Of a stretch of 64,000 nucleotides of DNA, positions 2,416-20,553 are shown piece after piece. The DNA comes from Alloacidobacterium dinghuense (GTDB taxonomy: Bacteria > Acidobacteriota > Terriglobia > Terriglobales > Acidobacteriaceae), in NCBI RefSeq assembly GCF_014274465.1, contig NZ_CP060394.1, forward strand, positions 5,146,001 to 5,210,000, given 5' to 3'. The notes below the pieces were generated by a model that had not been told where the DNA came from, did no database searches, and saw only the letters and a program-made list of their open reading frames with translations. A program made the position numbers and the translations under genes. The number at the start of each line of letters is the position of its first letter. Position 1 is the first letter of the stretch.

Positions 2416-2422
2416 GAATGTG

Positions 2423-2428: not shown

Positions 2429-2492
2429 GTGCCTTTCAATCAAGCATCATCTTGAGCAGCCCAACCTGTGCGAGTGCGTCTTGCCCGATCGT

Positions 2493-2775: not shown

Positions 2776-3108
2776 TTATTCGGTCTCCTTATTTGAATTG
2801 CGTGTTTGCTGTTGTTCTGGTGCAGGTTCAGGCGAAGTCTGCCTTAGAGCCCTATCCAGGTTTGCTGCCAGAAGATGGGTAAAACGATAGAGCCAACCGT
2901 AGAAACCGCTGGCTTCCGTTCTAGGTGGACCCATTGCGCTCACCGCAGCTGAGAAAACCCAAAGTGCCCCAGCCCCGGTCCAAAAGGATTGGGCTGAGCT
3001 GCTCGGCCAGAGGATCGCATGCATGAAGTTCATCATTGGTTCATCCTGATTTTCATTTTGGAAACAATAGAATTGCGTTGCGGCTGGGACCGCCACAGAC
3101 GTACTCAT
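2776..3108 (-). CDS. Small membrane protein of the phage block (holin-like position)
   Basis: The 110-residue product has one clear hydrophobic segment around residues 42-60 (FWTGAGALWVFSAAVSAMG), a second weaker aromatic stretch after it, and a polar Pro/Gln/Glu-rich tail. ATG at 3108 follows the tail-protein stop by about 14 bp. An in-frame ATG at 3036 has a better spaced AGGA and would drop the first 24 residues, so the start is uncertain. The size, single membrane segment and position after the tail genes fit a holin or tail-associated membrane protein, but no family motif proves it. Confidence 0.55.
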   Translation of the reverse strand: MSTSVAVPAATQFYCFQNENQDEPMMNFMHAILWPSSSAQSFWTGAGALWVFSAAVSAMGPPRTEASGFYGWLYRFTHLLAANLDRALRQTSPEPAPEQQQTRNSNKETE

Positions 3109-3122
3109 TCCGGAAATGTCCG

Positions 3123-5438: not shown

Positions 5439-5453
5439 TTGGTCTCCTTGGGG

Positions 5454-6434
5454 CTATATCAAGGTAGCGCTGCCCGGAATGAAGCTGCGGAAGCAGACCG
5501 TTAGTTCACCATCATTGCTGTCGGTCACCGGCAGCGCACGGAAGTTGGCATTTAATGCAGCCCTTTCGAGCGGCGCGGCCACGGCATCGGCACTTTCTTC
5601 AGATCCTTGCATCGCCTGCAACCGCGGATAGTGAAAGATCACGCGCTCTCCCTGCTCTCCGGGTAGAACGAACACTGCTGACCACTCCTGAAAAAAAGTC
5701 CCGCCTTCACGGTCGACAAAACCAACGATCGGCTGGACCTTCATGCCACTCAACGGGGTGCCAGCAAGCAGCGGCTGCGCGAGCTGCAATCCACCTGAAG
5801 TTACCTGTGCCACCCTCGCCACGTTAAAGCTCACTCGACGAATGTAGTCAGGATCATTGTTGATCGCGACTGAATTACGCACGTAAGCTGCTGATACACC
5901 GCTCCCGACAAAGCCTGCCTGCCCTGCGTAGTCGACATCGACGGTGACCAGGCAGCCAGCTGAGAACGGCCCGATGTCTGTTGTATTCAAAGCAATATTC
6001 GTGGCACTGGAACCAGCCTGCACACTGACTGCCGCAACCCCTTTTGCGCCAGATCCATTCGCAGCGCTTCCGCTCGCAGGCTGAATCAGGTTCATGTGCT
6101 GCGATCCGGCCGACAGCGCCATCGTCAGTTTGTTCCAGACCTTAAAGCGAAACGATACGGTCGCACCCGTCGCTTCACGGACCTGGTACTGCGCGACACT
6201 TGGCACGCCGACGTTCAGCGCACTGATCGAACCGGTTGACTTGCGAGCGAAATTTTCAGTCCAACCGAGATCGATCCAAGGCTCAGGCGGCGAATCTAGA
6301 GAAAACTGACCCATCTGAGATGGGTCGAATGTTGATGGAACTTGTTGCACTCGATTAACCGGAGCAAAGTACGCGCGCACCCGTCGATACATGGTAGGTA
6401 ACGCGGAATAATTTGTAACCACGGATGTGCTCAT
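5454..6434 (-). CDS. Phage structural protein, possible tail-tube or tail protein
   Basis: A 326-residue, Ala/Ser/Val/Gly-rich beta-type protein with no signal peptide or membrane segment. Its ATG overlaps the stop of the upstream gene by 4 bp (ATGA), and the next gene starts about 15 bp after its stop, so it lies inside the tail operon. It follows the tail-terminator-like gene, where a major tail protein is normally encoded. The segment EATGATVSFRFKVWNKLTMA is reminiscent of tail-tube beta strands, but I do not see a diagnostic motif. It could instead be a tail decoration protein. Confidence 0.55.
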   Translation of the reverse strand: MSTSVVTNYSALPTMYRRVRAYFAPVNRVQQVPSTFDPSQMGQFSLDSPPEPWIDLGWTENFARKSTGSISALNVGVPSVAQYQVREATGATVSFRFKVWNKLTMALSAGSQHMNLIQPASGSAANGSGAKGVAAVSVQAGSSATNIALNTTDIGPFSAGCLVTVDVDYAGQAGFVGSGVSAAYVRNSVAINNDPDYIRRVSFNVARVAQVTSGGLQLAQPLLAGTPLSGMKVQPIVGFVDREGGTFFQEWSAVFVLPGEQGERVIFHYPRLQAMQGSEESADAVAAPLERAALNANFRALPVTDSNDGELTVCFRSFIPGSATLI

Positions 6435-6919
6435 AGTTCGCCGCGCTCCTGAAACGTAAAAACATTGATCTTCACAACTCGTGTCAGGCGCTCACGTTGC
6501 GTTGTCAAAGTCGAGAATTGTGGTTCTCCCCAGAAGACCTTCGTCGCCATCGTGGCAGTCGGCGTCTGTGTGAAATTCATCTTTGGCGCACAATTTGGGC
6601 TGAGAATACCTAGCAGTTCTGCATCCATTCCCTCAAGCGTCCGCCCTCGGTCAAGGCCAGCATTGGCTTCTGTGCCGCCGGTTGTGTAGTGGACCTCGCA
6701 AGTCATCTGCGCCAGGACGGACGGCAGTTGTACATCCACGTCGAGAGCGGTCCAACGCAACACAAAGGCGTCTGCCGGTAACTGCGCGACAGGCGCTTCT
6801 GCTTCTTCCATCAGAATGCCTGGTCTTTGCACACCTCGTAAAATGATCACGCGGTTCGGATTCAATGCGGCCAGACGATTACGTAGTGTCACATAAAAAG
6901 TGTCTTTTGCATTTTCCAT
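6431..6919 (-). CDS. Tail terminator/minor tail protein-like
   Basis: The 162-residue product begins with a helix around RNRLAALNPNRVI and ends in a beta-rich part containing RERLTRVVKINVF, the general pattern of small tail-completion proteins. It lies between the head-tail adaptor-like gene (18 bp upstream) and the candidate tail protein, with which it shares an ATGA stop/start overlap. Family assignment rests on order and size; no catalytic or binding motif is expected. Confidence 0.5.
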   Translation of the reverse strand: MENAKDTFYVTLRNRLAALNPNRVIILRGVQRPGILMEEAEAPVAQLPADAFVLRWTALDVDVQLPSVLAQMTCEVHYTTGGTEANAGLDRGRTLEGMDAELLGILSPNCAPKMNFTQTPTATMATKVFWGEPQFSTLTTQRERLTRVVKINVFTFQERGEL

Positions 6920-6937
6920 ACATGCCTTCTTAAAAAG

Positions 6938-7387
6938 TTATGGAACGGGCTGTAGAAGTGAATGCGACTCACGTAACAGCAGGCGATACAAATAGACCTG
7001 TCCCAGGGATTGCGATACTGAACGCGATTCAACCAGGAATTGAGCGCCATTGATCTCGATCCCCGCTGCTGTGTCGAATAACGCATCTGCCGACGTCAAT
7101 TGCAAGGTGCTTACCTGTTGCTGCACTGCGGAAGCAGAGATTAGGAGCTCGTAACGTGCCTGTTGTCCTTCTTGCATCGTGGCGCGAACCCTGCGAAAAA
7201 TCGCAGGAGAGAGTGAAAGCTGCTGAAAATTGGGAATGTCAATGCCAACTTGTCCTGCGTCACTGCTATCGACAGTGGCAGGCGCTACAAAGAGAGAAAC
7301 AGCTATCCCTCCACCCGCCCGTAAAAGCGCATCCGCCATCAACAGAGCGCTGCTATTCGGATTTCTAACGCTAAGATCTGCGCTCAT
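6938..7387 (-). CDS. Phage head-tail adaptor-like protein
   Basis: A 149-residue protein encoded between the connector gene (ends 3 bp upstream) and the tail-terminator-like gene. The C-terminal part (ALFDTAAGIEINGAQFLVES, then SLGQVYLYRLLLRES) reads as a small beta barrel, as in stopper/adaptor proteins that join portal to tail. The N-terminal segment is Ala/Leu-rich. The specific role is inferred from position in the canonical order connector, adaptor, terminator, tube. Confidence 0.5.
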   Translation of the reverse strand: MSADLSVRNPNSSALLMADALLRAGGGIAVSLFVAPATVDSSDAGQVGIDIPNFQQLSLSPAIFRRVRATMQEGQQARYELLISASAVQQQVSTLQLTSADALFDTAAGIEINGAQFLVESRSVSQSLGQVYLYRLLLRESHSLLQPVP

Positions 7388-7390
7388 CTC

Positions 7391-8014
7391 TCACCCCAGG
7401 CGACTTGCCACCCACGGCTTCAATAGACTCTGCACCGTGCTGTCAATCAGTGTGTTGGAAAAGTACTCCATCTGCATTGTGTCGATTCTGCTGCTCTTCA
7501 CGTTTAATCCTGGGGTAGCTTGCGCATTCTTGACGATCAATGCACATGCGGCCATTACCGCATCGGGAATGGTGCTCAACCCCGCCGTGTACGTCACCTG
7601 CACCTCGTTATAGGGCAACCCAAGAATGTTCATCGGGAAGATTAGCTCACCGGTTTGCGGAACGAAGTCGACTGTCGACGGGTCCATCTGCGTCCACGCG
7701 CCGGGCAATGCGAACGCCCAAGCGATTTCTTCCTGCAATGGATAAATCATCTGGCCACGCCGCGGGCGCGCGTAGCGCGCCTGAATATTTACAAACGGTG
7801 AGGTAGCTGGAGTGATCGGCGCCAGCGGCAGATAACTCAATCGCACCGTCTGTGATCCAGCCGTGAGCCTCAAGCGCTCCACATACTGGGTAGGATTCAG
7901 GCTGATCCGTCTGCAGTGAGTGTCAATCAATGCCGAAGCGACAGTGATCCAATCATCCGTTGTATCCGACGCAAGGCCGAAGTTCTGATAGTCTGTCGGC
8001 TGCAAATATCCCAT
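7391..8014 (-). CDS. Head-tail connector protein (gp6-like)
   Basis: The product is 207 residues from ATG at 8014, which has GGAG about 6 bases upstream; a longer reading would add 16 residues without a ribosome site. N-terminal DDWITVASALIDTHCRRISL is the typical opening helix of connector proteins with the gp6-like fold. The middle is beta-rich and ends in YTAGLSTIPDAVMAACALIV, a pattern (tyrosine-threonine-x-GL-x-x-x-P-x-x-V) found in many such connectors. These rings attach below the portal. A strong terminator and about 240 bp separate it from the capsid gene. Confidence 0.7.
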   Translation of the reverse strand: MGYLQPTDYQNFGLASDTTDDWITVASALIDTHCRRISLNPTQYVERLRLTAGSQTVRLSYLPLAPITPATSPFVNIQARYARPRRGQMIYPLQEEIAWAFALPGAWTQMDPSTVDFVPQTGELIFPMNILGLPYNEVQVTYTAGLSTIPDAVMAACALIVKNAQATPGLNVKSSRIDTMQMEYFSNTLIDSTVQSLLKPWVASRLG

Positions 8015-8175
8015 AATTATCTCCGCATCTGAGTCGCCGCACGCTTCACATCTTTGTTTCAAGAAGAAGTGGGTGGATCAGTTTGTCGAAAGTGCATCGC
8101 ATTGCGATTCACAGAGTCCCGCGTGAAAAAAGAGCTCTAGCCACTCAGGCAGTTCAACCAAACGGACCCACCTGC

Positions 8176-8207
8176 AAAAAGGGATGATCCGCGCGAGCGA
8201 ATCATCC
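8176..8207 (-). terminator. Intrinsic terminator downstream of the major capsid gene
   Basis: Read on the minus strand, an 11-bp stem (one T-G wobble; outer arms GGATGAT / ATCATCC) with loop TCGC is followed by CTTTTT. It lies 45 bp after the capsid stop codon and about 160 bp before the connector gene, in the middle of the morphogenesis gene row. Confidence 0.75.
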
Positions 8208-8252
8208 TCAAGTTGATTCATGCTGCTAGGAAATCACCCGACGGCGACATGC

Positions 8253-9221
8253 CTAGCGATCAACCAGCACCTGGTAGTGCGCATAATTTGCGCCCTTCAC
8301 CACCACGCCACCGAACTTCACCACAACATACTGCGAAGCCAAGGAGCCGGGAATGCCGAGTTGGAAGACCCGGGGTGTCGGATCGCTCAGCCAGTGATAC
8401 TCGATCATGTCTTCAGTCACGATGTAGGCCGGAAGAACAGCCGATCCTGAACCCGGAGTACCGGTGTAGCTCAATGCCCAGTCCGGAATCAGCGGGAGGT
8501 CTCCGGCCTGCGTCGAGAGAGTCTTCACCGTGAATCCGGCATTGATTTCGCGAGTATTCAGAACGACGTTAAAGTCGGTCTTCATCTCGCGGTCGATCAG
8601 ATCGAGCAGCACCGGGTTGGCATAGATAGCAGTCGGACGAACTGCGAAGTTGCTGTTAGCTACCATTTGAGCAACTGTCGACTTCAAGCCATCGACGATG
8701 CTCGCGGTGGCGCCGATCGTCGTCGTGTTACCTCCTGCCGCAACTTGAGAGGAGACGCCGAAATACTGCGTCGATGTCGGAGTGCTCAACGAGGAATCGT
8801 TACCGTTCCAAAGCGCAATGTCGTGGGTGTGCAGAACGCCTTCGACTGTATCGACAAGATCTTTAGCCTGCAGATAAGCGAATTGTTTTTGCTGCGTGCC
8901 CAATTCGATGTCAAACAGGTTGTAATTGAGCTGGGCGACAATCGCCTTGAGTGGAACGCTGCGCTCCACGCGTGTCGGGCTAACAATTGGGGCAACAATA
9001 TTGCGTGGGTCGACGAAGCCTGCCGTTCCAGGGGTCGGAATGGCGGTCTCTTCGAAGAACCGAGAAGGATGTCCTGTGGCCGGAACTTGCTTGATCCTCT
9101 GCCCGAAGATACCCCGACGTTGTACGATGTCAGTGATCTCAGTCTGATAAAAGGGTACTTCGATTGCACCAGGCCCGATGTAATCAGCAGCCGCATGGAT
9201 GTCGTAAAAGTTTGCGCTCAT
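8253..9221 (-). CDS. Phage major capsid protein (HK97-fold type)
   Basis: The 322-residue product has features of HK97-fold capsids with an early N-terminal region. There is an extended arm with GFVDPRNIVAPIVSPTRVER, a spine-helix-like region (QAKDLVDTVEGVLHTHDIAL), and the conserved A-domain passage AIYANPVLLDLIDREMKTD. The C-terminal strand is RVFQLGIPGSLASQYVVVKF. It lies downstream of portal, protease and scaffold genes, the standard order. Terminators on both sides make it a separate transcription segment. The ATG at 9221 has only a weak upstream purine stretch. Confidence 0.82.
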   Translation of the reverse strand: MSANFYDIHAAADYIGPGAIEVPFYQTEITDIVQRRGIFGQRIKQVPATGHPSRFFEETAIPTPGTAGFVDPRNIVAPIVSPTRVERSVPLKAIVAQLNYNLFDIELGTQQKQFAYLQAKDLVDTVEGVLHTHDIALWNGNDSSLSTPTSTQYFGVSSQVAAGGNTTTIGATASIVDGLKSTVAQMVANSNFAVRPTAIYANPVLLDLIDREMKTDFNVVLNTREINAGFTVKTLSTQAGDLPLIPDWALSYTGTPGSGSAVLPAYIVTEDMIEYHWLSDPTPRVFQLGIPGSLASQYVVVKFGGVVVKGANYAHYQVLVDR

Positions 9222-9291
9222 TCGATTCTTTCTGCCTGCAGACAGGCGGAGTGATTGGTTTGAGATGGCACGGTTTCCGAAGGCCGTGCGT

Positions 9292-9320
9292 TATAAAAGA
9301 AAAGGGCGGCCTCAGCCGCC
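9292..9320 (-). terminator. Intrinsic terminator between scaffold and capsid genes
   Basis: Minus-strand GGCGGC-TGAG-GCCGCC is followed by CTTTTCTTTTAT. It lies 26 bp after the scaffold stop codon and about 70 bp before the capsid ATG. A second small hairpin (GCACGG / CCGTGC) lies between this terminator and the capsid start. Confidence 0.7.
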
Positions 9321-9346
9321 GTCACGCGCCAGTCTTTTGAATGACT

Positions 9347-9772
9347 CTACTGGGTCAGCATTCCCGCGCGCAGCAACTGCGCCTTTACAGCAATTCGCTG
9401 TTCGAGGCTCAATCCCGTGAGAGCCGCATCCAGGGCGCCGGCCTGAATTGAGTCAACTGTCGAAATTCCTTGTTTCGCCAGCAGTTGCGTCGTCGAAGCA
9501 GGGAGTGTCTGGCGAGCCGCGGTAGACCGGCTGCTCTGCGCGCGTAGTTCCGCAATCTGCTGCTCAGCTGCTTCTAGCTTCAGTCGCAGTTCGCACTCGC
9601 GCTGCAGGGACTCACTTTGGCCTTCAACCGCGGCCGTCATTTTCTCAACCGCTCCACCTGCAATTTGGTCACGCTGTTCGAGCCACGTCACAGTGCGTTC
9701 CAGGAGACCCGCGGCGGTGGTGAGGCGTTCAATACTCTCCCCCAACGAGGCAAGAATGTTATCTGTTTCCAT
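9347..9772 (-). CDS. Coiled-coil scaffold-like protein
   Basis: From ATG at 9772 (purine-rich GGAAGGAAG upstream) the product is 141 residues and mostly helical. A long heptad-type stretch rich in Glu, Gln, Leu and Arg (for example RECELRLKLEAAEQQIAELR) is followed by a Ser/Thr linker. A small C-terminal helical domain ends in QRIAVKAQLLRAGMLTQ. This is the usual architecture of a capsid scaffold encoded between protease and capsid genes. The start overlaps the end of the protease gene by 14 bp in another frame. The role is inferred from coiled coil and location. Confidence 0.65.
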   Translation of the reverse strand: METDNILASLGESIERLTTAAGLLERTVTWLEQRDQIAGGAVEKMTAAVEGQSESLQRECELRLKLEAAEQQIAELRAQSSRSTAARQTLPASTTQLLAKQGISTVDSIQAGALDAALTGLSLEQRIAVKAQLLRAGMLTQ

Positions 9773-10388
9773 TACGCTTCCTTCCTTCTTTTGTCTGACC
9801 CCAAAATTGCGTCTCGAATGGCCGGCCCGAGCGCGCAGCAAGTTTGGCCCTGTTGCTCTCTCTCAGCGAGTTGCTATTCCGGCAACGTCCCGCCGACAAC
9901 CGAAACGACGTGTTTCGATACGCGGCCTTCTCTCGAAGCAGAATGGCCGCTCCTGTGAATATGGCACGCGTTAACGTCCATACCTCTGCACGCATGTCAG
10001 CAACATGCGCATCTGCCAGCTCATAAGACATACCCATGCTGCCGCTCTCGCTGTGCTGCAGTTGCCGCACTACCTCCGGGAAATCACGGCCAAACAAATA
10101 GCCGCCCACTTGCAACTGATTTCCGATAACGTCAGCTTCCGTGATGATCCCGCACTTCGCCCGTGCATCATGGCCGTCCCATTTAGGTGCATAATCAACA
10201 GCCATCCCAAGCAATGATGGCAACGCCTCTCGCGCTGCCGTCTGCGTAAGGATCACCCTGTGTCCCCGTGCTCCGGATGGAGGCCGAGTGCTTGCTTCGT
10301 CCACCGTAGTAAGCACACCTTCAAAGGAAATCCGGTTCGGATGATCCCCGACTTCCGGCATGGTAATCGCCATTGCTTCCAGTCTCAT
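9759..10388 (-). CDS. Putative prohead protease
   Basis: The 209-residue product starts at ATG 10388 with GAGAGG close upstream. It contains RISFEGVLTTVDE near the N terminus, a His in the central WDGHDARAK segment, and SGSMGMSYEL about 60 residues later. The spacing and surroundings match the His and Ser of phage prohead serine proteases (S78/U35-like). The VGGYLFGRDFPEVV stretch also fits. The end of the gene overlaps the scaffold gene. The C-terminal ~45 residues are basic and look like a removable tail. The active-site assignment is by pattern, not by alignment. Confidence 0.68.
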   Translation of the reverse strand: MRLEAMAITMPEVGDHPNRISFEGVLTTVDEASTRPPSGARGHRVILTQTAAREALPSLLGMAVDYAPKWDGHDARAKCGIITEADVIGNQLQVGGYLFGRDFPEVVRQLQHSESGSMGMSYELADAHVADMRAEVWTLTRAIFTGAAILLREKAAYRNTSFRLSAGRCRNSNSLRESNRAKLAARSGRPFETQFWGQTKEGRKRNGNR

Positions 10389-10437
10389 GTCCTCTCTATC
10401 CCCTCATCTAAATGCTGGTTGTCTATTCGCTGCTCTT

Positions 10438-11685
10438 TTACCCCCTCTCTGACGCCGTCACTGTGAGCTGACTAGTCGGAAGCGGCGCCAGTCCACGCAT
10501 CGACCGCACTTCATTTACAGTCAAAACGCCAGCCGCAAGAAGCTGTGTCTGAACCTGTAGTTCCGTCAACTCGTCTGGCGCATCCAGTTCATTGAAAACA
10601 AACTCAAATTCACGCCAGCCCAGCTTCTTCGCAAACAAATCTCGTGTCAGATGCTCTGCCAGCAACTTCGCCAGCGGCACGATTGCGCTGCGGAATGCTT
10701 CGTCGGCCTGCTCTGCCGCCGTCGTTCGGTTCACTTCACGCTCAAGTCCAAGAAGCATCGGAGGCAATGAGAATGCATTCGCAACCATGCGAATCAAGAA
10801 CTCCTGCCAGTTCATCCGAAGGTCCGCATCTGTGCCGCTCGCGAAGCGTAGCACCTCCGGCTTCTGTTCTGTGCTAAGTAGAGGAACTCTGCCCGTGCCT
10901 TCAATTTCGTCCTGCCACCATCGAATCAGCCGCTCGTGCTCCACAGGAGTTGTTTCATTGAGCCACAACGCATATTGCACTACTGCGTTACTCGCCAGGT
11001 TTCCGGCGAATCTATGAGCGGCAAGAAAGGTGTTCACAGTCTCGAATGCAACCTCTAGCGGACCCAAACCAAACGGCGTATGGGATCGTGGATTCATCCG
11101 CAAGTAAATCAGCTGATCATCACGCAGCAAGACTTGCGTATTGGCGCCAGGTAATCCAGTCGTTTGCGCATAGCGGACTGATTCCGGCTTCCCATCCCAT
11201 TTCGGATTGATCTCAATCGTTGCGCCATCCACGGCCCACAAATCGAACGGTTTTTGCGCATCTCCTGTGATCTCCATCTCAATCGCGCCAAAACCCCCGA
11301 CCAGTGCATCTTCCAGGACCTGCTCAATCAAGGTGCGAAATGAATCGCTCGCGTTCGGCTCCTCAAGCGCTCGACGCAGGGCCTGCATACGTCCCTGAAC
11401 GTTGTCTACATCTAGGAGTGAGAATCCACGCTTCGGTCGCACTTGCCAATCCAGGCTGGCGATGCGATCTTTCAGCACATTGATTGCCCTGCGCACCAGC
11501 GGCGTTTCAGCAAAGCGACGCAAATTCACAGGAGTAGGTTTCGGCAACGCATTTGAGGGTGTGCGGTAGGGAGTCAGAATTGAAGGCAGTGCCAAGGTCT
11601 TTCGTTTTGCCGCCTGCTCCTCTGCTGCGTCGATGCCGACTTCCTTCCGCCGCCACAGTTTTTGAACCGAACTCTTGACCTTCAA
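10438..11685 (-). CDS. Phage portal protein
   Basis: The chosen start is TTG at 11685 with GGGAGG 8 bases upstream, giving 415 residues; an upstream extension lacks a ribosome site. The protein resembles HK97/SPP1-type portals: VRRAINVLKDRIASLDWQV near the N terminus, NPRSHTPFGLGPLEVAFETV in the centre, and MVANAFSLPPMLLGLEREVN then EQADEAFRSAIVPL in the stem region. The C terminus has VQTQLLAAGVLTVNEVRSMR and GLAPLP, a common portal ending. It forms the 12-mer ring through which DNA is packaged. It lies about 108 bp after the DUF3037 gene, which separates it from the terminase. Confidence 0.9.
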   Translation of the reverse strand: MKVKSSVQKLWRRKEVGIDAAEEQAAKRKTLALPSILTPYRTPSNALPKPTPVNLRRFAETPLVRRAINVLKDRIASLDWQVRPKRGFSLLDVDNVQGRMQALRRALEEPNASDSFRTLIEQVLEDALVGGFGAIEMEITGDAQKPFDLWAVDGATIEINPKWDGKPESVRYAQTTGLPGANTQVLLRDDQLIYLRMNPRSHTPFGLGPLEVAFETVNTFLAAHRFAGNLASNAVVQYALWLNETTPVEHERLIRWWQDEIEGTGRVPLLSTEQKPEVLRFASGTDADLRMNWQEFLIRMVANAFSLPPMLLGLEREVNRTTAAEQADEAFRSAIVPLAKLLAEHLTRDLFAKKLGWREFEFVFNELDAPDELTELQVQTQLLAAGVLTVNEVRSMRGLAPLPTSQLTVTASERG

Positions 11686-11793
11686 TGTTTCGCCTCCCGT
11701 CGTTCTCTGCTTTCTCAAAAAGAAAGGGCATGGCGATAAGCCATGCCCAACCAATCCCACGCACTGCCGCTTCTCAGATCGTCACATTTGGCT

Positions 11794-12627
11794 CTATAAC
11801 CGAAATTCCCTCTGCGCTGTCTCCGCCATTCTAGGCAGATCATTCGTTGTTATCACGCGGATATCCTGTTCTTCCATGGTCTCGACGGAAAATCGATATT
11901 GCTCCACGCGCTCAACATCCTCACGATCCGCGCTGACCTCAACAATCGGCTCTACAATCGCCGTAAGTTCCAGTTCCGCATTCTCAATCCGCGCCACACC
12001 TTCCCGAATGGATTCAACGCTGAAAGCCAATACTTTAGGCCACTCCGTATCGCTGTCTAGCGAGACAGCATGAAACATGCGAATTAGGCCATTCGGCCGA
12101 TAACCGCAATCGATACGTAAGGGATCACCCGTCTTCGTATATCTCGAGACAGAAATACGTTTGCGCATCAAGTCCCAAACGCCTGCGCGCTCAAACTGCG
12201 ACCGCATTTTGGCTTGTATCGCCTGCCGTCCGGTCTTGCGCGCCGACGCTTGCCTCTTGCGTGGCTCGACAAATAGCCGCATCAACTCCTCGACTCCGGC
12301 AATCATCGACTCAGCCAGATATGCCCTAGGTTCGGTGATCTGTAGTCCAGTCGAAAAAGAATCTTCGAAAACACGCATAAGTGGCGTTGCGTCGCTACCC
12401 TGATGTGCTAGCCGCCGCCGAAGCTCACTCTCCAGGCTCTCAAGCATTGCAACATCCACATCCGGGTCGATGCATCGAACACGCGCCCAGTCCTTCGTAA
12501 AGTTCACGGTTATCTGTTCCGGTTGTGCTACGTCCCGCAGCAGAACTCCGATATTTACGAATTCATTTCTCACCGGATCCGGCACATACCGGACGAGGTA
12601 GAAATCGCATTGCTTCCGTGTACTCAA
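11794..12627 (-). CDS. DUF3037 family protein, partner of the HipA-like gene
   Basis: The 277-residue product opens with QCDFYLVRYVPDPVRNEFVN and continues IGVLLRD, the hallmark start of DUF3037 proteins. The middle is Arg-rich and helical and the C-terminal half is alpha/beta. No enzymatic motif is visible. The ATG at 12627 lies 28 bp after the HipA-like stop codon, so the two form one unit. As I recall, DUF3037 genes commonly sit directly downstream of HipA-like kinase genes in Acidobacteriota and some other phyla; the molecular function is unknown. Here the pair is inserted between terminase and portal genes of the phage block. Confidence 0.8.
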   Translation of the reverse strand: MSTRKQCDFYLVRYVPDPVRNEFVNIGVLLRDVAQPEQITVNFTKDWARVRCIDPDVDVAMLESLESELRRRLAHQGSDATPLMRVFEDSFSTGLQITEPRAYLAESMIAGVEELMRLFVEPRKRQASARKTGRQAIQAKMRSQFERAGVWDLMRKRISVSRYTKTGDPLRIDCGYRPNGLIRMFHAVSLDSDTEWPKVLAFSVESIREGVARIENAELELTAIVEPIVEVSADREDVERVEQYRFSVETMEEQDIRVITTNDLPRMAETAQREFRL

Positions 12628-12655
12628 TTTCTATACCTGGATGTCATTGCCACGA

Positions 12656-13528
12656 TCACATTATCGGTCCTCGGATAGTATCGGCCCAACTGGGCTCGGG
12701 AAACTGTCTTTCGATCGCGCCGATCGAAACCGTCATCCAATTTGGAAAAGGCTGGCGGGATGATTCCTGAAAGAGAGTAATCAGCTCGCGAATACGGCTA
12801 CGTCGTTCCAATAACCGCTCAATAAGCGTCTCAATTTCTGCTAGATCCCCGCCATACCATTCCGGAGGCACTATCTCCGCTATAGACCAGATTTTCTGCG
12901 GATCAAGTTCTTCCGCGCGGCTCAACCAAGGCTCAAAGCTGTCCCAACCCACAACACCTCGGTACACGAGATTCCGCGCATAGACCCCCCGTAATGGAGC
13001 ATCAACAAATTTCCATTCCCCCGCATTAAAGCAGTACCCCTGGTCGATAAACGTGGCCGCATAGCGCTTCTCCCGAGGCCGTTTGTAGAATACGGCCTGC
13101 CTTCCATTGGAATTGCAAGTCCACTTATCAATCACAAGCATTCCGAAAAATTCAGCAAGGTTTTTCACTTCAGCCAGTCTTTCCTCGGGAAGGTAATCAA
13201 CTACCTGCCCCGGCATCAGACCGCCCACCAATCTGGAACCAAATTGTAAGCCCGGCCGACATTGTTCTTGGGTCTGGCCCAAATCAAGGCTAAGTTCCTT
13301 CGAGTTTTGAATCAGCCAATCTGTCACCTCAACGATTTCACTGGCTGGAACACTTAGCCCAACCGCTTCCGCCAATCGCGTCGCCATTAATTCATTGGCC
13401 AGGACCCGTATATGCTGCGGATTATTCTGAAACTTGACGACATAAGGATGGCCGTCTGAAGCAAGCATCAGATGGCTCTGCGCTCCTCCTCGCATCCGTC
13501 GAATTGCTTGTGTGGCCAGAACCGCCAA
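12656..13528 (-). CDS. HipA-like Ser/Thr kinase-fold protein
   Basis: The 290-residue protein starts at TTG 13528 with GGAGG just upstream; an internal ATG is possible but would cut the conserved RRMRGGAQSHLM start. PYVVKFQNNPQ contains the probable ATP-binding Lys32. IDKWTCNSNGRQAVF (D134, N139) matches the catalytic loop D-x-W-x-x-N of HipA-type kinases, and FIDQG (D162) matches the metal-binding Asp. It is shorter than E. coli HipA (about 440) and lacks the N-terminal HipA subdomain. No HipB-like DNA-binding antitoxin is next to it; the neighbour is DUF3037 instead. The substrate is unknown. The pair is located inside phage packaging genes, which suggests an accessory (moron) role such as exclusion or dormancy. 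Confidence 0.78.
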   Translation of the reverse strand: MAVLATQAIRRMRGGAQSHLMLASDGHPYVVKFQNNPQHIRVLANELMATRLAEAVGLSVPASEIVEVTDWLIQNSKELSLDLGQTQEQCRPGLQFGSRLVGGLMPGQVVDYLPEERLAEVKNLAEFFGMLVIDKWTCNSNGRQAVFYKRPREKRYAATFIDQGYCFNAGEWKFVDAPLRGVYARNLVYRGVVGWDSFEPWLSRAEELDPQKIWSIAEIVPPEWYGGDLAEIETLIERLLERRSRIRELITLFQESSRQPFPNWMTVSIGAIERQFPEPSWADTIRGPIM

Positions 13529-13579
13529 CCTGCCTCCGTTTCAATCGGATTGTACCTGCTCCGAGCTCCAACGTGACGT

Positions 13580-15100
13580 TCACAATCGCATTTCACCCCG
13601 TACACAGAGCGCTATTGCCATCGCCATCACGCAATCATCATGTGCTCCAGCACTGGCGCCAATCTTTCCGTTGCGATGCCGCACGAAGCTTCGGCATTCC
13701 TGCAGTAGGCGCTTGCTGTAAAAAATTGTCGGTGTTTCGACTAGAGCAGCAGCCAGCGCTCCCAGCATGCGCGGACGATGAACCACTGATGTGAGCCAGC
13801 CGTCCTGATCTTCCTGCCTGTAAATATGCGGATATCTGCTCACACTATGCAGGTATGCCAGCACCCCAGACCCGTGATTATTGCGTTCCACCACCAGCCA
13901 GGCTCCGTTGTACTCCTTCGCTAGCCGTGCAGACTCTTCCGCGAGTTCCAGTGGAGACAACCTTGCTCGTAATTCGGCACACTGAAGGCCTGTATTGATC
14001 TCCAGTACCTGCGCAACAGAATAGTCCCCTTCACTGCCGCCTCCAGCCGTGTCTACAGCAACCAGGTAACGTCGCCCCTGCACTGGAGGAAACCATAACT
14101 GCAATTTTCCTCCGAGCCGTGTTGCAATCGGCTCAGGCAAGTCCTTGATGCGCGCATCCAAGGCGGCGACATCGAAATAGCAATCGCCGCTGCTGAGAAA
14201 GCATTCAATCGCGTCCTCTGGATACTCCTGCTTCGCCAGCCCACGAAATCCCGCCGCTATCTTTCTGCGAAATCCTATTTGCTCCAGACTCAGTCCGTGC
14301 TGTTCAATCAGCCTCCGCTCATCACTCTGCAGCGACTCCTCGGACACGCGCTCCGCTCGGTATGCGTCCTCCAACCACCAGGGAAAGAAGTGTTGCACCA
14401 TCCGGCACTGTTCGGCATTGTTCCACTCTTCCCAGAAACATCCCTCAGCCCCGTTTGGGGTCGATTCCAGCACCAGCTCTCCTTGCGGAGGCATTGCTGC
14501 TCGTAGTCCCTGTAGCGTCTCCCCCGCGCCAGTCGGCCAGCGAGCGACTTCCGAGCAGTGCAGATTATGAATAGTCAAGCCCCGCCCTGCATTTGCGTCA
14601 CCAGCAGTTTCAACGCGGTACTCGCTATCCAGTGATGGGAATACGATCTGCCGCGAACTTGCCTTTGAGGTTCGCAGAGCCCCATCTCGCAGCCATTCTG
14701 GCAGCCCATCAAGGAATCTGTGAACAATTCGAAATATTCCCTCGGCTGCTTCCTGTGTGTGTGCCACTTGCAATGTCAGCGTACCGGGATTCGTGATCGT
14801 TCTCAGAAAAAATCGTCCGGCTACCCATGTGCTGATGCCCATCTGGCGCGACTTAAGGACGATATTTGCCCTTCCCCGTCGCTGCTCGAATGCCCTCTGC
14901 GCCCGGTTCGGTCGGAATGGCACGATTTTGCCAGTCCGGTTGCGAATTCGCAGGAGCTGTTCTGCAAGAAAACGCCCGGTAACCTCGCCTTTCAGCTCAG
15001 GCAGCGCGCTATCCAGGACCCTTCCAAGATCGAGCAGCTCACTGCGATCAATCGCACTTCCCCAGCTCTCAATACGCGTACCAGTTCGCATCGGGTCCAC
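13580..15100 (-). CDS. Terminase large subunit
   Basis: This is the packaging motor with ATPase and nuclease domains. Residues 83-91 (KSRQMGIST) form the adenine/Walker-A like loop, HNLHCSEVARW carries the Walker-B acidic residue (E184), and LESTPNGAEG is the coupling motif. The RNase H-like nuclease has Asp350 (VAVDTAGGGSEGD), Glu405 (VVERNNHGSG) and Asp488/489 (HDDCVMAMA). All key acidic residues are present, so it appears functional. Starts are GTG at 15100 or ATG at 15091, both overlapping the end of the spike gene. At 506 residues it has normal length. It is followed after 51 bp by the HipA-like gene. Confidence 0.93.
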   Translation of the reverse strand: MDPMRTGTRIESWGSAIDRSELLDLGRVLDSALPELKGEVTGRFLAEQLLRIRNRTGKIVPFRPNRAQRAFEQRRGRANIVLKSRQMGISTWVAGRFFLRTITNPGTLTLQVAHTQEAAEGIFRIVHRFLDGLPEWLRDGALRTSKASSRQIVFPSLDSEYRVETAGDANAGRGLTIHNLHCSEVARWPTGAGETLQGLRAAMPPQGELVLESTPNGAEGCFWEEWNNAEQCRMVQHFFPWWLEDAYRAERVSEESLQSDERRLIEQHGLSLEQIGFRRKIAAGFRGLAKQEYPEDAIECFLSSGDCYFDVAALDARIKDLPEPIATRLGGKLQLWFPPVQGRRYLVAVDTAGGGSEGDYSVAQVLEINTGLQCAELRARLSPLELAEESARLAKEYNGAWLVVERNNHGSGVLAYLHSVSRYPHIYRQEDQDGWLTSVVHRPRMLGALAAALVETPTIFYSKRLLQECRSFVRHRNGKIGASAGAHDDCVMAMAIALCVRGEMRL

Positions 15101-18100
15101 AAACCAAGGTTCTTTTGCCAGCCGATGAAATCACCAACGAGTTAGCGGTTGCTCCTTGGTAGTTAATGGCCTGCGAACTCGTTGTCGTCACCGTCACAGC
15201 GTTGGTACTCGAGTCTGACTTGATGACCGTAAATTCCTCCCCAGTTGGAGAAGCCTTATCTGGCCACGGCGTAAAGCAGCTCGGTAATGTGATTGTCTGT
15301 GTTCCGCTCGACGCGTTGGCAATGACATTTTTGTTAGCGGCGGTCAATGTTATGGATCCACTAGTATTCAATACGGTCGAGAGTGCAATGCCGCCCTGTG
15401 TACGAACAGTGCCTTGATAGGTAACGTTGAAAAAAGGATTCTGTCCCGCAATGTGCCCTTCAAACAGATCTGTCTGATACCCGCTATAAAGCTGCGCCGA
15501 ATATGCTTCATAGTTCGAAGTCGCCGCCTTTGGCGACGCCCACACAGTGGCGACCGCGCTGTTTCCGGGAGCATTATTCGAAGCCCCACCGCCCGTAAAT
15601 CCGGTCGTCGTCTCTGGTTCTAATGCTTGCGCATAATTTCCACAGCCGGTCAGATGATGAACGCTGGCGAATGTTGGAGGTATGCCGGAAGAAGCCGCAT
15701 ACGTAATCCAGTTCACTGACGAGGACATGCCCAGGCAGCCGATGTCGGCGACTTCCAACCCATTTGTCACATTAGGCGAGACATAGGCGAGGTTTGCCGA
15801 CGGAAAACTCGTGAAATCGGGCCACTGAATATGTCCGCCATGGATCGAAGTTCCATTGGCGCCGACGTAGAACCCGGCAATCGCAGGGCTATCAGCATAT
15901 GTATCTGTCCACACACTTCCAGCGCCACCTGTATCGTAGATCACATAGTCCGTTGCGTAGGAGGCATTGGCTACCGATGAACTTAGTGCTGTATTGCTAC
16001 AAGGTGCATTCGTGCACGTGTACGGATAGCCGAATCCGTGAATCATATAGCCGGTATTGCCTGTACCTTCGTTATAGATTCCAGCAATGAGCGCGTTGCG
16101 TACCAGTACAGTATCGAGATGGCTATCGATTGCCGTCTGCTGCATGTGAATTCCGTAAGCTGGTCGGCTCGCCGGGGTGAAGTTAGCGGCGTTATAACTG
16201 ACAGTCACATTCCGGAGAATGAACCCCGATTGATGTCCGTTGGTCGTGCTTTCCTCCCCGAGCAAGATGCCTTCTGCGGAAGTGTCGTTAACCGCAACGT
16301 CATCCACCAGCAACCCGCGGAACCACTGCAATTCCAGGCCGTGGATAGCATTCTTACTTGCAAGGATAGTGAAATCCTTAAAGACACATCCTTGTGCTTG
16401 AGAGTTATTCCCGAGAAAAACTACATCTCCTCCAAGATTTGTAGTTACATTGAGCGTAGTCGCGCTTGCTGTGCTATCTGCCGCGGTGCTTGCTCCACCC
16501 GATCCAACGAGATTAATGCAGGCTCCGTTGCTAGGCTCAGTCAGCGACGAGCTAACCGAGTAACTTCCAGGTCCAAGTCTTACGGTCTGGTTGCGGCCGG
16601 TTCCGTTAGCAATGCCAACCGCAGCATTCCAGGCACTGTTCAGGGTTGTATAAGTACTTCCGTCCACCGTGATCTCCCCGTTCAGCGATGCAGCAGTAAA
16701 CGCTCCCCCCACCTTTGTAGTTCCACTGACAGTTACATTAGCGGTTGAGTTACTCTGGCCTGCAACACTGAATGCTCCTGTCCACTGAGTCCCATTCCAG
16801 ACGTCGTATTCATACCCTGCATGGCCAGCGTTTCCCGGCGAGCCTTTAAAACATATTCGGTTTAGCGATTGAGTGCTTCCAACTGCAGGCGTGTCGAACC
16901 AGCAGTAGCTGTTTGCAAACTTTGTCCCGACCATCCATTGGTTGTAACCACCATACTGACCATATTGCTGCTCATATCTCATGAAGAAACCGTTTGTTGG
17001 CGTCCATACGAGCCCCAGTCCCGGCACGGTGACAGTCGGCTGCGCCGATATGCCGTTCACGTAGGTCGGGGCGGTCAGATAAGAGCCACCCGTGATATTG
17101 GCGAGTTGCATCCGCGACGATGCCCCGGAGGTCTCAGCCGTTTCCAGTTGATTGAACGGGATGCCATAGGCGCCATCAAAATTCAACCCGGGATAACGAT
17201 GTACAGCGATCTCGCCTTGATGGGCGTAAGAGCCAGAAGACGTATCAATGTTATGTATCGTCAGCTTTGCGGACCCTACGCCATCAAAGAAGTCTAATGC
17301 GCCGCCCGGCGGATCTACGATCAAACCATCCGGGATAGGTCCGGTAACGACTTCCGCGCAGGTCAGCACCCCAGTTTGGTCGCAGTTATCGATATATCCA
17401 GCGCCGGGCGGCTGAATGGCCGCAATGTGAGAGTCTTCGATATCAACGGCCGCATGCTGAGACCCAGGTCCTTCCTCGACGATGGAGCCTGCTGGCCAGT
17501 CACCGTTGCTTATGCTCGACCCGGAAGCCCCGCGGGCAAGGACGTGCATCTTCCCGTCGGCAGTGAACCCCTGTACTTCGATGACTTCAAACTGTCCGCG
17601 CTGAATGTTCGGATTGTACTGTGATGGAGCAGCACTGCCGGAGAGAAAGTCCTGCGGCATAATAATGTAGTAAACAATCGAGCCGGTTCCCATGTCAGCC
17701 GCCGATTCAAAATACTGCGCCATCCAGGATGTGTCAGTTACTCCGACAACTGTCGCTGAAGGAGGTAGTTCACCCGCCAGCTTCGTCTTCTCAAGCACGC
17801 CGCCGTTAACGTAAATCCCAGCATTCAGTCGTGGCTCGTTGCTGTAAGGAAAACCCTCCAGATAGAAATTCCGGATGCTTCCATAGCCACCTGCGCGAAA
17901 GCCGCTCATGTACTTGAGTGGCTTGATCGACCCGCCATAGAAACTATAGTTCACGGCCTTTACGATTGTGATCGCACCATGAGGATCAGGGCTTACCGAG
18001 GACGGACCACCACCCGCACCTTGGTTAGGAAAAGGATAGGAGTTGTTCGGGCAATTGATTCCGTAACAGTAGTATTCCTCCCCGAAGCGCTCTGCGGTGG

Positions 18101-19307
18101 ATCCAGGTGCCAAGATCTGGGTGTTGAAGAAATAGCTTTCGTTGATGTCGCCGCCTAAGATGATGGGCCACCGAACAGAAGTGATCGATAAGTTGTCTGA
18201 ACGAAATCGCTCACTGTTGTTATTTAGTTGCAGTCCGCGGCCGCCATGGTTAGACATCGAGACATTTGTAATGTGAAACTGGGCAGCAGCATCGACTTCT
18301 AGTAAAGTGCCAGTTGTGGCATGGCCGCTCCCATCGAGTTGGATATCGCTTATCTGCCCGTTACAAATTTCTGTGTTAGAGCAAGAGTCAGCGTAGACCG
18401 TAAGCAGGTTCGTCTGAGCAGACGTGAGTTGTAGTATGCTCGCTTGACTGCTATCTCCTTCGATGCATATGTTAGATGGAACACGTAACGTATTGCTTAC
18501 TTTATAGAGGCCGGCAGGTATATATATGCAGGGAGTTGCCCCATTGCTCCCAGCCTGGGGGTTCGCAACCGCAAAAGCAATTGCGGCTTGAATCGCAAGT
18601 GTCGAGTCGTTGGTTCCAGTTGGGTCAGCTCCCCCGGAAAAATCGGGATGTCTGATGTCAACTCGCGGCAGCTTTGTCACCGCATCGGGCGTCCGCAGCG
18701 TTCCAATCATATTACCGCCCGCCAGCGGCACAGCCGAAGCCACCGCCTGGTCCGTATACTGCTTCGTTGCCGCTTGGTTACTAGACGTTGGAGAAGCTGA
18801 CAGTAGCAGCGGCCCAGCCATTGTCCCGCCAGTCAGAGAAAGATAATTACCACTCAGAGATGCGATTGACGTGTCGACATATTGCTTTGTTGCGTCTTGC
18901 ACCGCGATCGTTGCAGGAACAAGTTGAGCGCGAATTGAAACGATGGAGGCAGTCGCCGCGGCCGGGACAACCCAGTATTCTTTGTTTACCGTGCCATCGT
19001 TAAGATGATAGATCGCCGTGTAGTAACTACCCGCCGGAGAAGCTCCAGCGTTCGCGGCAAGATTGATACTAACAAACCCGTCTTGCCCGATTGCAACCGT
19101 TGCATTGCCAGCAGCGACAGCCTGGTTCTTCGCAGTCGAAAAGGCGGCCCATGTTACGATCAGCGTTCCAGTAGCTGGCGTTCCATCTGCTCGATACACT
19201 ACTCCCTGCACCGTCGTAGTCGTTATCTGGGAATGAATAGGCGATGCAGTCAATCCGAATAGCAGGATCCACATCGCATTCTTCACAAACCACCTCTTCT
19301 GGCTCAC
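15069..19307 (-). CDS. Large beta-helix tailspike/fibre-like protein with signal peptide
   Basis: GTG start at 19307 has GAGGAG upstream. The first 26 residues form an apparent Sec signal peptide (basic start, NAMWILLFGLTAS core, cleavage near PIHSQ). Next come a fibre-type segment with the repeat LTGGTMAGPLLLSASPTSSN and ATKQY-T/V-D, then a pectate-lyase-like right-handed beta helix beginning at DFSGGADPTGTNDSTLAIQA. A second beta-helix region follows from about residue 880 (GSTYTTLNSAWNAA), and the C-terminal ~100-residue beta domain ends in CGPDANWYAY. Total length is 1412 residues. Such proteins bind or cut polysaccharide. A signal peptide is odd for a virion component and may mean it is secreted by the host instead. 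Confidence 0.8.
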   Translation of the reverse strand: MSQKRWFVKNAMWILLFGLTASPIHSQITTTTVQGVVYRADGTPATGTLIVTWAAFSTAKNQAVAAGNATVAIGQDGFVSINLAANAGASPAGSYYTAIYHLNDGTVNKEYWVVPAAATASIVSIRAQLVPATIAVQDATKQYVDTSIASLSGNYLSLTGGTMAGPLLLSASPTSSNQAATKQYTDQAVASAVPLAGGNMIGTLRTPDAVTKLPRVDIRHPDFSGGADPTGTNDSTLAIQAAIAFAVANPQAGSNGATPCIYIPAGLYKVSNTLRVPSNICIEGDSSQASILQLTSAQTNLLTVYADSCSNTEICNGQISDIQLDGSGHATTGTLLEVDAAAQFHITNVSMSNHGGRGLQLNNNSERFRSDNLSITSVRWPIILGGDINESYFFNTQILAPGSTAERFGEEYYCYGINCPNNSYPFPNQGAGGGPSSVSPDPHGAITIVKAVNYSFYGGSIKPLKYMSGFRAGGYGSIRNFYLEGFPYSNEPRLNAGIYVNGGVLEKTKLAGELPPSATVVGVTDTSWMAQYFESAADMGTGSIVYYIIMPQDFLSGSAAPSQYNPNIQRGQFEVIEVQGFTADGKMHVLARGASGSSISNGDWPAGSIVEEGPGSQHAAVDIEDSHIAAIQPPGAGYIDNCDQTGVLTCAEVVTGPIPDGLIVDPPGGALDFFDGVGSAKLTIHNIDTSSGSYAHQGEIAVHRYPGLNFDGAYGIPFNQLETAETSGASSRMQLANITGGSYLTAPTYVNGISAQPTVTVPGLGLVWTPTNGFFMRYEQQYGQYGGYNQWMVGTKFANSYCWFDTPAVGSTQSLNRICFKGSPGNAGHAGYEYDVWNGTQWTGAFSVAGQSNSTANVTVSGTTKVGGAFTAASLNGEITVDGSTYTTLNSAWNAAVGIANGTGRNQTVRLGPGSYSVSSSLTEPSNGACINLVGSGGASTAADSTASATTLNVTTNLGGDVVFLGNNSQAQGCVFKDFTILASKNAIHGLELQWFRGLLVDDVAVNDTSAEGILLGEESTTNGHQSGFILRNVTVSYNAANFTPASRPAYGIHMQQTAIDSHLDTVLVRNALIAGIYNEGTGNTGYMIHGFGYPYTCTNAPCSNTALSSSVANASYATDYVIYDTGGAGSVWTDTYADSPAIAGFYVGANGTSIHGGHIQWPDFTSFPSANLAYVSPNVTNGLEVADIGCLGMSSSVNWITYAASSGIPPTFASVHHLTGCGNYAQALEPETTTGFTGGGASNNAPGNSAVATVWASPKAATSNYEAYSAQLYSGYQTDLFEGHIAGQNPFFNVTYQGTVRTQGGIALSTVLNTSGSITLTAANKNVIANASSGTQTITLPSCFTPWPDKASPTGEEFTVIKSDSSTNAVTVTTTSSQAINYQGATANSLVISSAGKRTLVCGPDANWYAY

Positions 19308-19359
19308 CGTTGCTCCTCTTTTTTTCGCGGTCTAACACAGAAACCACTTTCAAGTCTGA

Positions 19360-19725
19360 TTACTTCGTCTCGCTTCTTTCTGCTTCTTTAGCCTTGTTGC
19401 GCTTGAGTTCCTCAGCTTGTTTCAGCAAAATCTGTCCAAGGCTTGGCGGTCTGCGTCGCCTCGAAGTAGCAGCCTGGACTTCTTCCTTAACTCCGCCTAA
19501 GTCGAATAGCAGCTTCGTATGTTGCACACTGCCCTCTACCGCATGATTTGCCAAAGCCTCAACTATTTGCCGGTAGTTTCTTCCAATTTCCTCTTGCGCG
19601 GTTTTTCTGAAGTGTCTCGGCTTGGTCGATAGTCGTTTTTCGGCAGCGTGTGTCTCCGTCTGGGGATCGATTTGCTCAGATTCCATAACTCGTTTAGTGC
19701 GAGGTTTATCAGCTCGTTTAACCAT
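19360..19725 (-). CDS. Small basic helical protein, possible small terminase or regulator
   Basis: From ATG at 19725 the product is 121 residues, very rich in Lys, Arg and Glu. A central helical segment (GRNYRQIVEALANHAVEG) is followed by an Arg-rich stretch (SRRRRPPSLGQILLKQAEEL). It is the first gene after the hairpin terminator and precedes the spike and large terminase genes by position. A small-terminase or DNA-binding role would suit the position, but there is no recognisable helix-turn-helix. I do not recognise the family. Confidence 0.5.
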   Translation of the reverse strand: MVKRADKPRTKRVMESEQIDPQTETHAAEKRLSTKPRHFRKTAQEEIGRNYRQIVEALANHAVEGSVQHTKLLFDLGGVKEEVQAATSRRRRPPSLGQILLKQAEELKRNKAKEAERSETK

Positions 19726-19736
19726 AGGCAAAAATA

Positions 19737-19900: not shown

Positions 19901-20350
19901 TTAGTCGATTTTTAGAATCTCTAGATCTAGAAATAGGCGAGATAGGTCATCAAGCGTATCTGAATACTTGCGCGTAACAGAGCGTAGGCTCGCCCCAAGA
20001 AGTTCTGCGGTCTCCTCCTGTGTGTATTCCTGCAACGCAATTCGGGAAATCAATTCACGCCCAAACGGATCGATCTTCTTGAGGCATTTCTCAATATCGA
20101 ATAAAAAGATCACGGCATCCTCAAAACTGTGCATACGATAGCTGGATGCTTTTCCACGAAAAACACATTTGCCGATTAGCGACGGCACACGTCCTGTTTG
20201 GAGAGAAACAAACATGTATCTCCGCAAGAGAAGCTCGGTGCGTCTCCTGTAGAAAGCGATGCCTTCTGTAGGTGCGCCTACGGGAACAGACGGCGTGTCA
20301 ACGCTTGTAGATTCGGCCCAGACAAAGGGGAGCATCAATGCTGCGCTCAT
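19901..20350 (-). CDS. Sigma-70 region-4-like phage regulator
   Basis: ATG at 20350 with GGGAGGGAG directly upstream gives 149 residues. The C-terminal half is a sigma region 4-like helix-turn-helix: FGRELISRIALQEYTQEETA then LLGASLRSVTRKYSD. This pattern matches small phage proteins of the DUF1492/ArpU/sigma-4-like kind that activate late transcription. Regions 2 and 3 of a full sigma factor are absent. Its ATG overlaps the stop of the zinc-ribbon gene (ATGA), so the two are co-translated. It is the best candidate for control of the downstream morphogenesis genes. Confidence 0.7.
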   Translation of the reverse strand: MSAALMLPFVWAESTSVDTPSVPVGAPTEGIAFYRRRTELLLRRYMFVSLQTGRVPSLIGKCVFRGKASSYRMHSFEDAVIFLFDIEKCLKKIDPFGRELISRIALQEYTQEETAELLGASLRSVTRKYSDTLDDLSRLFLDLEILKID

Positions 20351-20553
20351 AGCTCCCTCCCGGCAGCCGCATGTTGTGTTGTGATGCGTCGGTTCTTCCT
20401 TGGCCGGCCGGCCAACCTCCTGGATCTTGGAGCAGGAAAGGCTCGCAACCTCGTCGAGCACGTAGCGCAATAAACCTCGTTCAACTCCTGGGCTCGGAAC
20501 CAAAGGCCTCCGCACCCCTCACAAACCTTTAAAGTCACGCGCGTAAACGTCAT
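20347..20553 (-). CDS. Small zinc-ribbon protein
   Basis: ATG at 20553 with GGAG about 6 bases upstream gives 68 residues. Two Cys pairs, CEGCGGLWFR and CATCSTRL, are about 17 residues apart and form a likely zinc ribbon. They are followed by a basic tail (RSRRLAGRPRKNRR) resembling an AT-hook-like DNA-binding segment. It is translationally coupled to the sigma-4-like gene by an ATGA overlap. The combination suggests a small nucleic-acid-binding regulator; no exact family is recognised. A longer reading frame extends upstream to 20637 but lacks a ribosome site. Confidence 0.6.
   Translation of the reverse strand: MTFTRVTLKVCEGCGGLWFRAQELNEVYCATCSTRLRAFPAPRSRRLAGRPRKNRRITTQHAAAGREL

Follow-up and report, generated by a model that had tools for sequence, protein, structure and literature searches.

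Why do a HipA-like kinase gene and a DUF3037 gene lie between the terminase and portal genes of a phage-derived cluster in an acidobacterial chromosome, and does the pair act for the phage genes around it or for the host? The question arises from a stretch of 64,000 nucleotides of Alloacidobacterium dinghuense, a member of the Acidobacteriaceae (contig NZ_CP060394.1, positions 5,146,001 to 5,210,000), which is referred to here as the window and numbered from its first letter. A previous sequence-only reading of this DNA had described the arrangement, which is confirmed by the coordinates and by Pfam and PHROG profiles: the kinase gene (12656-13528) and the DUF3037 gene (11794-12627) are on the reverse strand, co-directional with the terminase gene at 13580-15100 and the portal gene at 10438-11760. 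The explanation that we favour, and consider probable when taken as a whole, is that the two genes form a toxin-antitoxin or defence pair of the HipAD/PDC-M66 type that has a host function of its own, and that this pair became fixed in a phage-derived element which would have been domesticated early in the Acidobacteriaceae and passed on since then in single copy, mainly by vertical descent.

The kinase gene is an open frame for 290 amino acids with a TTG start, and its product matches Pfam HipA_2 (E 1.3e-9) and PADLOC PDC-M66A (E 1.1e-9), the latter being matched by all 21 aligned relatives too. The catalytic residues K32, D134, N139 and D162 are intact and invariant in all 92 aligned kinases (61 cluster members, 11 standing alone at the cluster site, two of these identical, and 20 elsewhere), which upholds the earlier description of Asp134, Asn139 and Asp162 as intact. 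An AlphaFold2 model built from a 21-sequence alignment (mean pLDDT, the predicted local distance difference test score, 75.5; low at residues 140-142, 163-185 and 267-290) has a predicted fold that matches the Helicobacter pylori kinase CtkA (Z 12.8), Shewanella HipA (Z 10.5) and Legionella HipT (Z 10.3). In one viral contig the kinase stretch (L012, 6150-6965) has a stop codon near its end, reflecting either sequencing error or decay. The window genome encodes a second HipA/DUF3037 pair (G000:C1:89045), in which the DUF3037 frame comprises 132 residues.

The partner gene, an open frame for 277 amino acids that also starts with TTG, encodes a probable antitoxin or sensor with matches to Pfam DUF3037 (E 7.2e-19; matched in 21 of 21 aligned partners) and PADLOC PDC-M66B (E 1.1e-10). 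As the earlier reading had stated, no HipB-like gene was found in the two-gene unit: the neighbours of the kinase are the terminase and DUF3037 genes, and the nearest helix-turn-helix (HTH) gene detected with Pfam (21031-21744, forward strand) is divergent and about 7.5 kb away. Its suggestion that the DUF3037 protein takes the antitoxin's place agrees with published relatives (PMC12548924, PMC13092281). A second, C-terminal domain is predicted in the DUF3037 protein, and this half (residues 127-277) has a weak likeness to PD-(D/E)XK nucleases in the structure comparison (best Z 8.6), without a Foldseek match at E 0.001 or better; we take this as a hint only. A sequence search of solved structures returned nothing for the DUF3037 protein, the putative capsid protein or the 771- and 326-amino-acid proteins of the cluster. 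Over 52 genomes the mean distance is 0.81 for DUF3037 and 0.49 for the kinase, and this faster divergence of DUF3037 might fit a sensor or an antitoxin. In one locus (L020, 8931-10611) a single kinase gene is followed by two DUF3037 genes in tandem.

A survey for recurrence, as the earlier reading had proposed, rules out a chance insertion in a single genome, since the arrangement is found across the family. The 61 genome clusters that were fetched because a kinase gene and a putative capsid gene were linked all have the pair between terminase and portal, and in 58 the order is terminase, kinase, DUF3037, portal, capsid, with the capsid gene upstream in the other three. The window order is also present in 22 of the 23 kinase-bearing viral contigs fetched, some of them near-duplicates. 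Among 200 genomes of the family, the kinase is matched in 142 and the terminase in 111 (both at E 1e-20), and the putative capsid gene in 114 (E 0.001), with one match only in 113 of the 114; 58 genomes, some of them incomplete, are without a kinase match. Terminase and putative capsid occur together in 106 genomes, 104 of which have the kinase. The kinase is missing from nine genomes in which terminase or capsid is matched, which is poor evidence of its loss because two show DUF3037 at a contig end (G499, G463), two have terminase fragments only (G435, G515) and the others are cut by contig ends. The closest relative of the window cluster among the genomes compared is G453. Across a sample of 396 genomes from the phylum the kinase is matched in 61, just three of those outside the family scoring above 270 bits; the titles of the best 80 of 457 named relatives give Acidobacteria, Acidobacteriaceae or its member genera, with the exceptions of L118 (Rhodanobacteraceae) and L166 ('bacterium'). 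In nine loci, Granulicella and Edaphobacter included (L118, L139-L141, L149, L150, L164, L166, L170), the capsid block is upstream of a beta-helix gene, and terminase, pair and portal stay together.

Phage records contain no relative of the kinase or DUF3037 at E 1e-5 (at E 10, three insignificant kinase matches and none for DUF3037) and none of the putative capsid protein; the portal has relatives in 35 phage records, all below 60% identity. A search of viral contigs with DUF3037 peptide patterns found no relative, but it is insensitive, since 22 contigs found through the kinase do carry DUF3037.

The cluster appears to follow its hosts. In the same 52 genomes, distances correlate with those of the RNA polymerase subunit RpoB at 0.80 for the kinase, 0.75 for the putative capsid, 0.75 for DUF3037, 0.68 for the portal and 0.37 for the terminase (Mantel p 0.001 for each of the five). 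In quick trees, the cluster tree being based on joined capsid, portal, kinase and DUF3037 rows, 29 of all 49 RpoB splits are common to both; among the RpoB splits supported at 90 or above, which number 26, the cluster tree reproduces 22 and contradicts three by a supported split of its own. All five cluster genes tested have ratios of nonsynonymous to synonymous substitution (dN/dS) well below 1: over 13 close cluster pairs the kinase has values of 0.03-0.20, indicating the purifying selection for which the earlier reading had asked, and putative capsid, portal and terminase range from 0.02 to 0.38. For the window genome and G453 the ratio was not computable for kinase and terminase, and several dS values exceed 1. 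A whole-genome search of 61 cluster genomes, 55 of them common to the linkage-chosen set, located purE or yceG, which flank the window cluster, at most 15 kb from the kinase in 32, at 15-30 kb in seven and within 65 kb in three more, so that the distance is within 65 kb in all 42 genomes in which the kinase shares a contig with either gene. Flank genes are visible in only 18 of the 61 fetched stretches because many of these end near the cluster edge. One of the 32 genomes (G412) has purE inside the cluster on the opposite strand, and some assemblies of one contig have one of the flank genes far off (362 kb in G407, for example), indicating a one-sided rearrangement of the site.

These data bear on the possibility that the cluster is an ordinary active prophage family with a defence pair as cargo, its narrow host range and fixed integration site mimicking vertical inheritance. 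Related portal and capsid genes do occur in viral contigs, the terminase tracks the host less well, and acidobacterial prophage clusters have been described (PMC5900883). However, no integrase was seen among the 27 window proteins scanned with Pfam, the cluster is single-copy and agrees with RpoB, and derivatives that consist of the pair only occupy the same chromosomal site. In one genome (G007), moreover, the terminase, the pair and the portal-to-tail block are on three contigs (L357, L356 and L358, respectively) and all are open, an arrangement that recalls gene transfer agents (GTAs) split over several loci (PMC11841831). We consider an active prophage family very unlikely, and the earlier picture of an active phage whose lysis is timed by the kinase finds no support, as the cluster behaves like an element inherited vertically, in single copy, within a bacterial family. 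With structural genes, no integrase seen among the window proteins and purifying selection on the tested genes, the cluster looks like a GTA, judged by its genes.

The position of the pair might itself indicate its role. If the kinase phosphorylated terminase, portal or capsid, or arrested the producer cell, it could time packaging or release of a GTA-like particle; such control would account for the location of the pair between terminase and portal throughout the linkage-chosen clusters and in nearly all viral contigs, and it has a parallel in Caulobacter, where the immune-type system LypABC governs the release of a GTA (PMC13236601). Yet three viral contigs (L035, L036, L042) have terminase directly beside portal, about 30-140 bp apart, without the pair between, and in genome G420 other genes occupy the site and the kinase is elsewhere. 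From these pair-free junctions we conclude that the terminase-portal junction acts as a slot that is nearly always filled by the pair. The G420 slot (L220, 9726-10953) contains, as named by reading the translations, an S23-like four-helix open reading frame (ORF) and a TonB-like one. Particle control is further disfavoured by the persistence of the pair, one-contig genomes included, where neither terminase nor capsid is matched. That persistence means that control of virion genes cannot be the pair's sole role; as the full explanation we hold it unlikely, and the pair may, by analogy with LypABC, have a role in particle biology in the species that carry the cluster.

Genomes that have the kinase and no terminase or capsid match number 32 of 200, and 22 of these were inspected (the first 16, then six more). 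The pair lies directly between the gene for a GFO-type oxidoreductase and purE or the dehydrogenase gene in G241, G281, G529 and G443 (a genome that is 83% complete), and in G273 it adjoins GFO, some 8 kb of other sequence separating it from the dehydrogenase gene. Five of the 16 first-inspected genomes thus keep it at the ancestral chromosomal site, G241 and G529 being one-contig genomes, and the G241 order (GFO, kinase, DUF3037, purE, purK) leaves no room for phage remnants. Among the named loci, L107 (the G443 contig) and L174 show both flanks and L133, L165, L172 and L173 the GFO side. When the 92 kinases are placed in a tree, the site's 11 pair-only rows form four groups within cluster-bearing rows; the quick tree needs four changes, two of them forced by starred branches, and the RpoB tree, with the four pair-only genomes that have RpoB, needs three, two of them forced. 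Genera g7 and g9 each include both states. As the pair-only rows are nested, and two insertions flanking a pair would be implausible, the direction of change would be loss of phage genes, which on these trees appears to have occurred about three times or more with the pair kept. The retained pair is under strong constraint (dN/dS in the G241/G281 comparison 0.046 for the kinase and 0.035 for DUF3037).

DUF3037 is beside the kinase in 10 of the 16 genomes. The other six could have been taken as a failure of the pair model, a view that we rejected for four of them: a whole-genome search found a full partner (330-364 bits) 42 kb off in G487 and on other contigs in G440, G509 and G551, all of genus g256, and the partner is absent in two. 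In G440 the unlinked DUF3037 gene is about 1.5 kb from purE, i.e. near the old site. That both genes are kept though unlinked supports a functional bond between them; the g256 loci are L207, L209, L213 and L221. In genus g11 several kinase matches occur per genome (up to eight, some perhaps fragments). Retention without phage genes and the multiple g11 kinases argue for host benefit or addiction apart from any particle, and the survival of both genes in several species whose phage genes are gone suggests that the pair acts for the host itself.

Addiction by itself offers another account, in which the pair is useless to the host and its loss frees the toxin, so that a unit that once stabilised the element is now a selfish remnant. 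Retention after the surrounding genes were lost, the unlinked partner kept in g256 and the toxin-antitoxin behaviour of relatives (PMC12548924) are all compatible with it. The pair is nevertheless losable, as indicated by the 58 family genomes without a kinase match, and the strong purifying selection and multiple g11 kinases suggest a benefit; we regard pure addiction as improbable.

Several observations weigh against the explanation that we favour. The HipA_2 match of the window kinase covers residues 9-101 only, and phosphatidylinositol 4-kinase II (PI4K II; Z 11.9) and Fam20 kinases (Z about 10) score like HipA against the model, so that the fold by itself does not single out HipA; the top Foldseek match is Golgi casein kinase, and the sequence search of solved structures gave a weak HipA match only (E 0.42). 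Against PDC-M66 the scores are modest (E about 1e-9 to 1e-10), and DUF1829, which is present in DS-6B, has no Pfam match in the 21 partners even at E 1. With respect to descent, the low terminase correlation and the three conflicting splits imply that parts may have been exchanged, and no more than five of the 61 cluster genomes have the two flank genes together within 15 kb of the kinase, while in 19 the kinase shares no contig with either. The viral contig L025 has a kinase without a DUF3037 match or any cluster gene, and genomes G417 and G418 (two of the 16 inspected) have a kinase and no DUF3037 match genome-wide; all three are contrary to a plain toxin-antitoxin prediction. Finally, the pair is found in the packaging region of nearly every cluster, where cargo need not be. 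As to the gene content of these loci, the L025 kinase relative (8001-8807) has 50% identity and an ORF at 11916-12980 reads, by eye, like an integrase, and at the G417 kinase (L217, 9878-10462) an ORF that by eye resembles a zeta-toxin-type P-loop protein is in the place of DUF3037.

On the explanation of a HipAD-type pair with its own host function, the kinase would be the toxin, by analogy with its relatives, and the DUF3037 protein would restrain it and probably sense a trigger. Once released, the kinase would arrest growth by phosphorylating a host target, and infection by other phages would be aborted, by analogy with DS-6/HipAD and the Retron-Sda1 neighbour. The pair would be kept by selection of its own, for protection, addiction or both, so that it would stay when the surrounding phage genes are deleted.

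In the window the gaps between terminase and kinase, kinase and DUF3037, and DUF3037 and portal are 51, 28 and 33 bp, short enough for one transcript to be possible; over the 61 clusters the respective medians are 161, 55 and 172 bp and some gaps exceed 1 kb, and at these wider spacings a separate promoter for the pair is also possible.

The cluster as a whole spans about 2776 to 19731 (17-19 kb), all on the reverse strand. The terminase large subunit matches phrog_2 (E 8e-28) and, below the curated cut-off, Terminase_6C (E 3.7e-4), and the portal protein matches Phage_portal PF04860 (E 5.1e-54). The putative major capsid protein (8253-9221) is named from position, conservation and weak matches only, which in relatives are to SU10_MCP (E 0.0046, one of eight) and the phrog_10 major head family (E 0.012, two of eight). 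Between portal and putative capsid, in the protease or scaffold position, is a conserved protein (9759-10388) that is matched in 61 of 61 fetched clusters and has no family match in the Pfam or PHROG scans, followed by a small conserved protein (9347-9841). Further downstream are a head-tail adaptor (7391-8062; phrog_442, E 1.4e-15), a conserved protein in a tail or connector position (6938-7387), conserved proteins at 6431-6919 (matched in 57 of the 61) and 5454-6434 (58), the 771-amino-acid protein at 3123-5438 (55) and the last small gene of the cluster (2776-3108). No integrase or replication gene was recognised in the Pfam scan and no lysis gene in the cluster, several of whose proteins match nothing.

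Upstream of the terminase, a beta-helix (pectate-lyase-like) protein of 1412 amino acids (15069-19307) is matched in 42 of the 61 clusters and is preceded by a small gene (19360-19731; three of 61). The beta-helix protein and several relatives have, by eye, a signal-peptide-like N-terminus, an unusual feature in the tail spike of a phage; the window protein may be of host type and secreted. A sigma-factor-like regulator (region 4; 19901-20515, reverse strand; in 30 of the 61 fetched stretches) and the divergent Cro/C1-type HTH regulator, present in 20 of the stretches, extend the region to 21744 and are candidate regulators. A relative of the HTH gene is near the lone kinase in L216, L218 and L221. 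The conserved left flank consists of purE (1924-2439, reverse strand), then purK and a 2-oxoacid dehydrogenase gene, and the right flank (22030-25106) of genes for a GFO/IDH oxidoreductase, a LolA-like protein and YceG, with GreA.

The earlier reading had considered the role of such a kinase undescribed, which stands only in part. The HipA/DUF3037 pair that neighbours Retron-Sda1 protects against phage Bas51 in the absence of the retron; its kinase is required for defence and deletion of its DUF3037 gene is toxic (PMC12548924). DS-6, validated in the DefensePredictor study and renamed HipAD, loses defence when a catalytic residue is mutated (PMC13092281). Like HipAD, DS-6 and PDC-M66, the window pair combines a HipA-like kinase having intact catalytic residues with a DUF3037 protein and no HipB; DS-6B, as far as described, differs in having DUF1829, which was not detected in window-type partners, and the window pair differs in being inside a domesticated phage cluster with mainly vertical inheritance through a family. 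The Retron-Sda1 pair is likewise a two-gene PDC-M66 unit in another element's operon, the host element being a retron there and phage packaging genes here. The HipBA and HipBST systems have a similar kinase fold (Z 8.6-10.5), whereas the window pair has a DUF3037 protein instead of HipB or HipS. Five 'Gratiaviridae' gut phages, too, encode a HipA-family kinase amid late structural genes, for which immunity to other phages was proposed (PMC8008677); it lies between portal and capsid genes together with an ATPase and a glycosyltransferase, whereas the window kinase is between terminase and portal, with DUF3037, in the chromosomes of a bacterial family. Like the cluster, GTAs consist of phage structural genes that were domesticated and that the host retains, sometimes at distant loci (PMC11841831); the window cluster differs in its embedded HipAD pair, and its GTA likeness, known here from the genes, was compared with described GTAs through the Pfam and PHROG scans. 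The pair is thus of a known kind and its setting, a domesticated phage cluster, is new: the open-licence papers searched yielded neither a GTA nor a domesticated phage described from Acidobacteriaceae, nor a HipA/DUF3037 pair in such a setting.

GTAs are hard to detect by sequence and their prevalence is open (PMC11841831), so a phage cluster that is widespread and mainly vertically inherited among common soil bacteria, cultured ones included, is a concrete candidate. A bolder and more doubtful proposition, which we advance tentatively, is that the Acidobacteriaceae have an undescribed, independently domesticated GTA with a HipAD pair built into its packaging operon, that this pair guards or arrests producer or recipient cells while genes are being transferred, and that hosts repeatedly dropped the particle genes and kept the pair. 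If true, domesticated phages would be a source from which cells acquire defence genes. An immune-type pair that is fixed in the packaging region and outlives it links the control or upkeep of domesticated phages with the origin of chromosomal defence pairs, and the cluster-bearing and pair-only sister species of the family form a natural set that makes both questions directly testable.

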